Origin: a virus
Length of the DNA stretch: 22,727 bases
Strand: one strand, 5' to 3'
Virus record (IMG/VR): IMGVR_UViG_3300001683_000107
Location: 1 to 22,727 of that record
Part shown: in pieces, positions 3,186 through 4,267 of the stretch
How positions within the stretch are numbered: the stretch's first letter is position 1
Layout of the letters: each line of letters opens with the position of its first letter
Translations under genes and position numbers: made by a program
The notes under the pieces: model-generated
What the model was told of the DNA's origin: nothing
The model's input: the letters and a program-made list of their open reading frames with translations, nothing else
Database searches by the model: none

Positions 3186-3618
3186 TTTGTTCTCTGTTTG
3201 CTGCACAGAAATTAGAACAAAATTTACAACTTTTCTTACCCCACAACTCCTTTAATGTAAACATATAAAATTCATTATCCAATATATCACTTAATATATG
3301 TTCATCAAGAGAAAACGCTTTTATACCACCGGCATCTTCTATTATATCATAAAAATCATTAATGAAATTATTCTTTTGATTATCACCTTTATTATGCTTG
3401 AGCTCTTTCTTAATAGGGGTTGGATCACCATTAATATAGTATTCCGGATACATTTTTCTTAATTGTATTCCAACCCAACAACAAGGCAATACAATACCAT
3501 GTGAGTCTACATATATTTCATTATCCAACTCAGCCTTACATTTAATATTATATGGGTATACCGGCGGGGAAGCCTTAAATGTTTTATTTTTTTTACTTGA
3601 CTTTTTTAACTCGCTCAT
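3148..3618 (-). CDS. SPASM-like C-terminal half of a radical SAM protein
   Basis: This 156-residue protein lacks a radical SAM CX3CX2C motif but has the cysteine pattern of an auxiliary Fe-S (SPASM-type) domain: C27 in YNIKCKAE, the C46-C47 pair in IVLPCCWVG, and C131, C134, C138 in SCKFCSNFC. The phrase IYVDSHGIVLPCCW is typical of phage radical SAM/SPASM C-termini. It overlaps the radical SAM core gene by 26 nt in another frame. Its own ATG at 3618 has no convincing Shine-Dalgarno. Removing one base from the A6 run near 3604-3609 fuses the two frames into a ~379-residue enzyme of ordinary family length. It is either a separate subunit translated by coupling, the product of a +1 frameshift, or half of a broken gene. 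Confidence 0.7.
   Translation of the reverse strand: MSELKKSSKKNKTFKASPPVYPYNIKCKAELDNEIYVDSHGIVLPCCWVGIQLRKMYPEYYINGDPTPIKKELKHNKGDNQKNNFINDFYDIIEDAGGIKAFSLDEHILSDILDNEFYMFTLKELWGKKSCKFCSNFCAANREQSEYSNRKSYVGK
3592..3616 (-). other. frame junction between radical SAM core and SPASM-like gene
   Basis: The minus strand reads GAGTTAAAAAAGTCAAGTAA. The core frame reads GTT AAA AAA GTC AAG TAA. The downstream frame reads GAG TTA AAA AAG TCA AGT. A shift of +1 at the A run, or one A fewer, joins them as VKKSSKKNKT. It is not a canonical -1 slippery heptamer. Homopolymer sequencing error is possible. Confidence 0.6.
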
Positions 3619-4267
3619 TATCTATTTCTATTGCCCCTTTATTGCCGTTATTATACCCAAAAAATCCAGATACAGCCTTTGTAACTACCCTCGCAAACCC
3701 TAATCGTTTAGCTCTTTTATAAATTTCTGGTACTTGATGTTCATTATGAGCAAATTCAAGGAATCCCCAATGGGCTTCCCCTCCGTTATCCATAAATGTT
3801 TTAGCATTTTCTATTACCTTATGATAATCAACCCCTCGTCTATATAAGTGTAGGGTATCTTCTAAACCATCTAACCAAAATACTATATGTGAATCATTAC
3901 CAAAGTATGACATCTCTTTTCCAACTTTAGCCCACCATTTCTCTCCCTTTAAACCACCATTAGTTTGTATTGATACAAATAGTCCTGGTGATTTATATTC
4001 ATTTATATAGCTTAAAATATCAGGTAATTCATGTGCCATCATAGGATCACCAAAATTACCGCATATAGTAAATTCATTTAAATTAAATATTAGAGTAGGA
4101 TCAAATCTATGTTTAAATTGAGACAAAGACATATTACTTGTATTAACAAATCTTTTAGTTTCAGAGGTTCCCTTTTTATGTCTAGCGCATAATGGACATC
4201 CTGCATTACAATAATCACTTAACTCAATATTGATATTGAATTTCTTATTTTTTATATCAACTAGCAT
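3593..4267 (-). CDS. radical SAM core domain protein (N-terminal half)
   Basis: The N-terminus carries CNAGCPLC (C20, C24, C27), the CX3CX2C cluster motif of radical SAM enzymes. In place of GGE is CGNFGDPMM (residues 69-77), as in several phage radical SAM proteins. The frame ends with RVKKVK and a stop at 3593-3595, just after entering the start of the SPASM-like gene. At 224 residues it lacks the C-terminal auxiliary-cluster domain, which the next frame supplies. The start at 4267 is fixed because the cluster motif begins only 20 residues in. A TATAAATA box ends 6 nt before this ATG and no Shine-Dalgarno is visible. The likely chemistry is radical modification of a peptide or similar substrate; the substrate is unknown. 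Confidence 0.75.
   Translation of the reverse strand: MLVDIKNKKFNINIELSDYCNAGCPLCARHKKGTSETKRFVNTSNMSLSQFKHRFDPTLIFNLNEFTICGNFGDPMMAHELPDILSYINEYKSPGLFVSIQTNGGLKGEKWWAKVGKEMSYFGNDSHIVFWLDGLEDTLHLYRRGVDYHKVIENAKTFMDNGGEAHWGFLEFAHNEHQVPEIYKRAKRLGFARVVTKAVSGFFGYNNGNKGAIEIDNERVKKVK

Follow-up and report, generated by a model that had tools for sequence, protein, structure and literature searches.

Does a radical SAM enzyme that is divided between two overlapping reading frames at a run of A residues represent one damaged gene or two working genes? The question is raised by a virus record of 22,727 bases (IMGVR_UViG_3300001683_000107), the whole of which was analysed and is here called the window. 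Judged by its kin, the phage would be a T4-like myovirus, because the product of the gene at 14461-19488 matches the annotated VrlC of HTVC008M (top match, 34%) and Mosig (38%), both Pelagibacter phages. A preliminary description of the DNA had placed a radical SAM core and a cysteine domain in different frames that overlap by 26 nt and contain an A6 run, an arrangement that we confirmed on the minus strand. The features concerned are as follows.

3593 to 4267, minus strand: ORF1, the radical SAM core, 224 amino acids (Pfam PF04055, motif and profile match)
3148 to 3618, minus strand: ORF2, a Twitch-like auxiliary Fe-S cluster domain as a separate ORF, 156 amino acids (invariants and tail profile)
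3593 to 3618, minus strand: 26-nt stretch shared by both ORFs, ORF2 being in +1 phase relative to ORF1
3602 to 3607, minus strand: A6 run within the overlap (T6 on the plus strand)
3587 to 3594: A8 run, which takes in the last two bases of the ORF1 stop codon
3616 to 3618, minus strand: ATG start of ORF2, the sole ATG, GTG or TTG ahead of the first auxiliary cysteine
2574 to 3206, minus strand: glycosyltransferase (PHROG 1962, weak GT8 match)
4293 to 5498, plus strand: N-terminal-Twitch radical SAM protein, divergent from ORF1, one uninterrupted ORF (NF033640, 273 bits against a cut-off of 170)
5625 to 6692, minus strand: third radical SAM protein of the cassette
14461 to 19488, minus strand: VrlC-type protein of 1,675 amino acids, marking the edge of the host recognition cluster

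We propose with good confidence that ORF1 and ORF2 are both real genes, coupled in translation, and that together they encode a single radical SAM enzyme of two subunits. The weights given here to this reading, to an accidental frameshift and to recoding are a judgement and not a formal posterior.

ORF1 carries the CxxxCxxC signature of the Radical SAM superfamily (PF04055) as CNAGCPLC (C20-x3-C24-x2-C27) and scores 34.1 bits against the Pfam Radical_SAM model, above its curated cut-off of 29.5; against N_Twi_rSAM (NF033640) it scores 37.8 bits, below the cut-off of 170. It retains 20 of the 23 core columns that are conserved in at least 85% of 92 fused rows. On a 350-position profile built from 50 fused relatives it corresponds to positions 9-198, with 230 bits. 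The ORF1 branch on a tree of 125 cores is long (1.2 compared to a median of 0.38), and no relative above 44% identity was found in viral_contigs, in genome_contigs or by alignment-based searches.

ORF2 contains six cysteines, arranged as C27-x13-G41-x4-C46-C47 ... C131-x2-C134-x3-C138. The Twitch domain is defined, in the portion of PMC6231123 consulted, by CX9-15GX4C followed by downstream cluster cysteines, and ORF2 supplies both elements (C27-x13-G41-x4-C46, then C134-x3-C138) and keeps the family invariants. It departs from the definition in that a Twitch domain shares the chain of the barrel, while ORF2 is separate, as are the corresponding genes in relatives. The domain had previously been called SPASM-like; Twitch-like is the appropriate label, since the seven-cysteine SPASM set (PF13186), given in the same portion of PMC6231123 as CX9-15GX4C-gap-CX2CX5CX3C-gap-C, is absent from ORF2 apart from C131-x2-C134-x3-C138. 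Pfam returned no match to ORF2 at E 0.1; its SPASM model matches 28 of the 45 members of the tail alignment and, at E 0.01, not ORF2 itself. On a tail profile built without it ORF2 scores 68 bits, and it occupies positions 239-343 of the 350-position fused profile. Because ORF1 passes the Pfam cut-off and ORF2 reaches this score on an independent tail profile, the identity of the pair is not due to chance. Searches with ORF2 by itself gave no match by tblastn against phages and no close relative in viral_contigs, and an alignment that combined ORF2 with its counterpart from phage Mosig led to 17 loci, all of them fused. Folded alone, ORF2 was predicted with a pLDDT of 75 and had no solved-structure match with Z of 2 or more in the VIA list, which is a second look at Foldseek hits only. 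While not proof, this outcome fits a domain that may need its partner or its cluster.

We then compared the pair with relatives in which both parts lie in one frame. An alignment of ORF1 and distant homologues, used as query, retrieved 278 relatives, of which 80 were kept: 55 have the cysteine tail (CC and a later C-x3-C) in frame, 24 have no tail behind the core and one runs off its contig. Seven of 28 whole records of related phages match ORF1 and three of these also match ORF2; in G010, G011 and G019 the ORF2 match lies within the open frame of the core, in proteins of 350, 350 and 347 amino acids, i.e. fused. ORF1 and then ORF2 align in order on the fused profile, with little lost but the linker, and the joined pieces amount to 372 residues, not the continuous protein of about 379 that had been described. 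Fused relatives from phages and bacteria (e.g. L086, L087, L010 and L006) have the same core and tail in about 280-420 amino acids, but in a single gene, and a low-confidence linker occupies the place of the window's ORF break. In the AlphaFold2 model of L086 the barrel and the tail mostly have pLDDT values of 85-98, and the linker falls below 50 for nearly all of residues 235-278. A cut in the linker should leave both folds intact.

The whole L086 model matches SuiB (Z 19.0), DesII (17.9), SkfB (17.4) and BlsE (17.2), followed by MoaA and anSME (both 16.7) and BtrN (15.0). These proteins share a barrel with the phage family, and those of the Twitch/SPASM type also share a domain for the auxiliary cluster, marked by CX9-15GX4C and further cysteines downstream. 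In BlsE and DesII the auxiliary domain belongs to the chain of the barrel. The same holds for SkfB, BtrN, MoaA, anSME and SuiB as described in the consulted portion of PMC6231123. The window differs from these Twitch/SPASM enzymes in that the auxiliary domain is a separate ORF, and in one clade of the family it is encoded before the core. Among the open-licence papers listed in literature searches, none describes a split radical SAM enzyme in its title or in the opening of its abstract.

The initial idea that the split was unique, and hence an error, was dropped once splits were seen in other viruses. Of 538 core rows, 409 were counted (14 left out as off contig and 115 for a core below 160 amino acids or 100 bits, among them three split rows: L077, L079 and L239, 48 bits) and grouped at 75% identity into 231 clusters: 194 fused, 22 core-then-tail, 12 tail-less behind the core and 3 broken-looking. 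The fused class includes motif-only calls (19 of 169 in the smaller set), and the broken-looking class consists of L288, L373 and L438, relabelled from split by eye, with L438 the least clear. Core-then-tail splits make up 20 of the 169 clusters outside genome_contigs and 2 of the 62 inside; the arrangement was also seen at L437:2952, in a Bdellovibrionales MAG, and at L442:270, in an Oligoflexia MAG. The one-frame version that the preliminary description proposed to look for is present in 194 of 231 clusters, and the rows nearest to the window on the tree are among them. The finding that it named as a refutation of frameshifting, many relatives with the same split, is borne out family-wide (22 of 231 clusters); it does not extend to close relatives of ORF1, as none was found.

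The split clusters resemble one another in where the division falls. In all 22, the first ORF has no cysteine more than 185 residues past the start of CxxxCxxC, i.e. beyond the barrel region, and the full cysteine pattern is present in 19 of the 22 tail ORFs, with the glycine misplaced in L206, L207 and L289. One pair belongs to a cultured virus, Pelagibacter phage Mosig EXVC030M, in which a 211-aa core (Mosig_00084, annotated as 'putative molybdenum cofactor biosynthesis enzyme') is followed by a 112-aa cysteine ORF (Mosig_00085, 'hypothetical protein'). The two Mosig genes overlap by 8 nt in the same phase as the window pair, but the Mosig core is only about 24% identical to ORF1 and lies in a separate clade on the tree, so that its split looks independent of that in the window. 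The ATGA split of L266 persists in five of five contigs, at identities as low as 86% (L282 being a repeat of the L266 contig). Both ORFs have dN/dS values of 0.02-0.25 in five of five split pairs, drawn from two lineages (L266 and Mosig-like), indicating purifying selection on each part.

The split label needs 9 changes on the 125-core tree and 14 on the 231-core tree, with at least 5 forced by well-supported branches on the former and at least 5 forced on the latter; both are quick trees with many open branches, and L357 is flagged as a long branch on the larger one. Splits therefore arose more than once, with at least five forced changes. The window itself stands among fused rows, apart from the Mosig-like clade, and its split accordingly looks like an event of its own.

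A separate tail ORF was also found in the reversed position, directly upstream of the core, for 43 of 47 tail-less cores and 8 of 12 tail-less clusters; in the remaining four clusters (L203, L208, L224 and L333) there was no tail ORF just upstream of the core. Tail and core of these reversed pairs overlap by 1-20 nt in most of the rows printed, as in L062, where a 108-aa tail ORF precedes a 252-aa core with a 4-nt overlap (L062:2654-3735). Because the order is reversed, no frameshifted fusion can explain such pairs. In six members (L075, L076 and L080-L083) a single core is preceded by two stand-alone tail ORFs in a row (frames of 107-111 aa), which looks like a duplication of the cluster subunit. 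In the large reversed-order clade (L062-L085 and others) an ORF with a PP-loop-like SGGCDS motif often comes next.

The strongest alternative for the window is that the gene is truly fused and was frameshifted by accident at the A6 run, either through faulty base calling or assembly of a metagenome contig or through a recent mutation that inactivated it. It would account for the fact that the closest relatives of ORF1 are fused in one frame and that the A6 run lies inside the 26-nt overlap, and with no relative above 44% identity the split could not be followed in near kin of the window. The ORF2 frame opens 29 nt before the end of the ORF1 stop codon, and its ATG, 3 nt downstream of the opening, lies 26 nt before that end. 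Of 54,852 single-base indels simulated in linkers from 180 fused relatives, 23.6% left an ATG-started tail ORF near the ORF1 stop; since random linker indels give the same pattern this often, the ATG of ORF2 alone is weak evidence for a gene. An A6 or longer run occurs in 10.6% of 29-nt windows across 144 AT-rich fused linkers. A DNA search of window 2500-9300 against phages gave no match, and for five contigs that are 92-99.6% identical to parts of the phage (L103, L104, L118, L160 and L167) the fetched parts stop short of the split region.

Several observations speak against such an accident. Homopolymers of at least six bases occur 12 times in the coding sequence of the window, twice at the ORF1/ORF2 junction, and yet the other window genes are uninterrupted ORFs, as judged by reading frame alone with no comparison to homologues. 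The search for cores interrupted internally detected none, compared to 241 full-length hits in 208 loci. Broken-looking members do exist, but they amount to 3 of 231 clusters compared to 22 splits, and two of them differ from the window in the features of the break: in L288 (from 2955) the first auxiliary cysteine stays in the first ORF, and in L373 (from 2880) no start codon precedes the tail, with L438 (from 2190) less clear than either. All conserved cysteines are kept in the window pair. Overlaps of this phase also join four further gene pairs of the window (8, 8, 20 and 23 nt), besides one of 1 nt in another phase, and an overlap of 26 nt is therefore ordinary for this DNA; the first listed start of the glycosyltransferase at 2574-3206 overlaps the end of ORF2 by 59 nt, and a later GTG would give a shorter overlap. 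A pseudogene or an error needs a rarer event, and we regard an accident at the A6 run as unlikely.

Much less probable still is programmed +1 frameshifting, or transcriptional slippage, at the A run to give a fused protein, perhaps beside the separate parts. A lysine tRNA might slip on AAA AAA G, around which the two frames overlap in +1 phase, and the +1 phase is common to 15 of the 22 split clusters. Long same-strand overlaps in bacteria generally favour this phase, however (PMC2542354, in the portion consulted), and pairs with ATGA overlaps or a gap exist among the splits (five ATGA overlaps and one 4-nt gap in 22 junctions); the phase bias was dropped as a sign of frameshifting for these reasons. 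No common slip site was seen by eye in the 22 printed junctions, window included, and no RNA hairpin was predicted at the window junction (z = +1.65, with 191 of 200 shuffles folding at least as well). The reversed gene order shows, moreover, that separate parts are tolerated. Among the four readings offered in the preliminary description, the two-gene form is the best supported, and +1 frameshifting, with no shared slip site visible by eye and no RNA stimulator at the window junction, is left unsupported.

It is hardly credible that ORF2 has abandoned ORF1 for a job of its own, for instance as an Fe-S carrier or in partnership with a different radical SAM protein from the cassette. Three radical SAM proteins do lie within a stretch of 4 kb, and some relatives have two stand-alone tail ORFs upstream of one core, but ORF2 adjoins ORF1, with the two parts arranged as in the fused enzyme, and in the split relatives listed the tail gene is next to the core gene.

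For a two-subunit enzyme encoded by ORF1 and ORF2, the following mechanism can be proposed. ORF1 would fold into the barrel that binds the SAM-cleaving [4Fe-4S] cluster, and ORF2 into a Twitch-like domain that would hold one auxiliary Fe-S cluster through cysteines all located within ORF2. ORF2 would dock on the ORF1 barrel without a covalent linker. The 26-nt overlap would couple translation of the two ORFs, so that one transcript would yield both parts at once. No strong Shine-Dalgarno site precedes ORF2; a G-rich AAAGGGG about 15 nt upstream of its ATG is a weak ribosome-binding candidate, and AGGAGG-type sites stand just before the second ATG in the second pair of L205 and in L240. The two-gene arrangement may go back to a fused ancestor that underwent fission in its dispensable linker, as would have occurred several times in the family.

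The surroundings of the pair point to a possible role. Pelagimyophages have, according to the consulted portion of PMC7029224, a host recognition cluster, a variable island beside VrlC with GT8 glycosyltransferases and radical SAM cassettes. The window pair likewise sits in a region beside VrlC, but it differs in being split, a form that the same portion of PMC7029224 does not mention for these cassettes. In G006, a 75%-identical phage, the neighbouring glycosyltransferase is kept (74% at the amino acid level), while the places of ORF1, ORF2 and the divergent Twitch radical SAM gene are taken by other genes. Since the glycosyltransferase is kept while the pair is swapped, ORF1 and ORF2 are part of an exchangeable cassette. 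Compared with window 2574-5498, a related phage (L199:12683-14791) retains the glycosyltransferase, whereas ORF1, ORF2 and the Twitch gene have given way to another ORF and a second glycosyltransferase-like gene, a cassette swap. The likely role of the pair would be to modify, from within a host-recognition cassette, a sugar or peptide on the surface of the host or of the virion. Such a substrate is the likeliest guess because the fold matches include DesII, BlsE and BtrN, which we take to be sugar enzymes, and the peptide enzymes SuiB and SkfB.

A gap of 25 nt (window 4267-4293) separates ORF1 from the divergent Twitch radical SAM gene and holds a palindromic stretch with TATAAATA in both directions, a few bases before each ATG. 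This motif, presumably T4-late-promoter-like, was considered as a shared T4-late-type promoter upstream of the two genes; it occurs 6 times in the window compared to 7.5 expected, and no claim is made. Elsewhere, the protein encoded at window 9275-10270 has a long series of YTG-type repeats and may be a tail protein.

The picture of the family, in which the auxiliary domain is fused to the core, behind it or before it, is a more interesting result than the split in the window. We think it rather likely that the auxiliary Fe-S cluster domain of this widespread phage radical SAM family is a free-standing, movable subunit, found fused, core-then-tail and tail-then-core, and that the window encodes one such two-subunit enzyme. 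Annotation should take such pairs into account, as the second gene in Mosig is listed as hypothetical and the first looks truncated, and such pairs could be mistaken for sequencing errors. If the family picture is true, auxiliary-cluster radical SAM chemistry can run across a protein-protein interface, and the cluster module would be exchangeable between cores. The role of auxiliary clusters is described as 'largely enigmatic' in the consulted portion of PMC10470005. With a natural two-chain form, present also in cultured Mosig, the cluster part could be added, omitted or swapped in vitro, which would offer a direct way to ask what the auxiliary cluster does.
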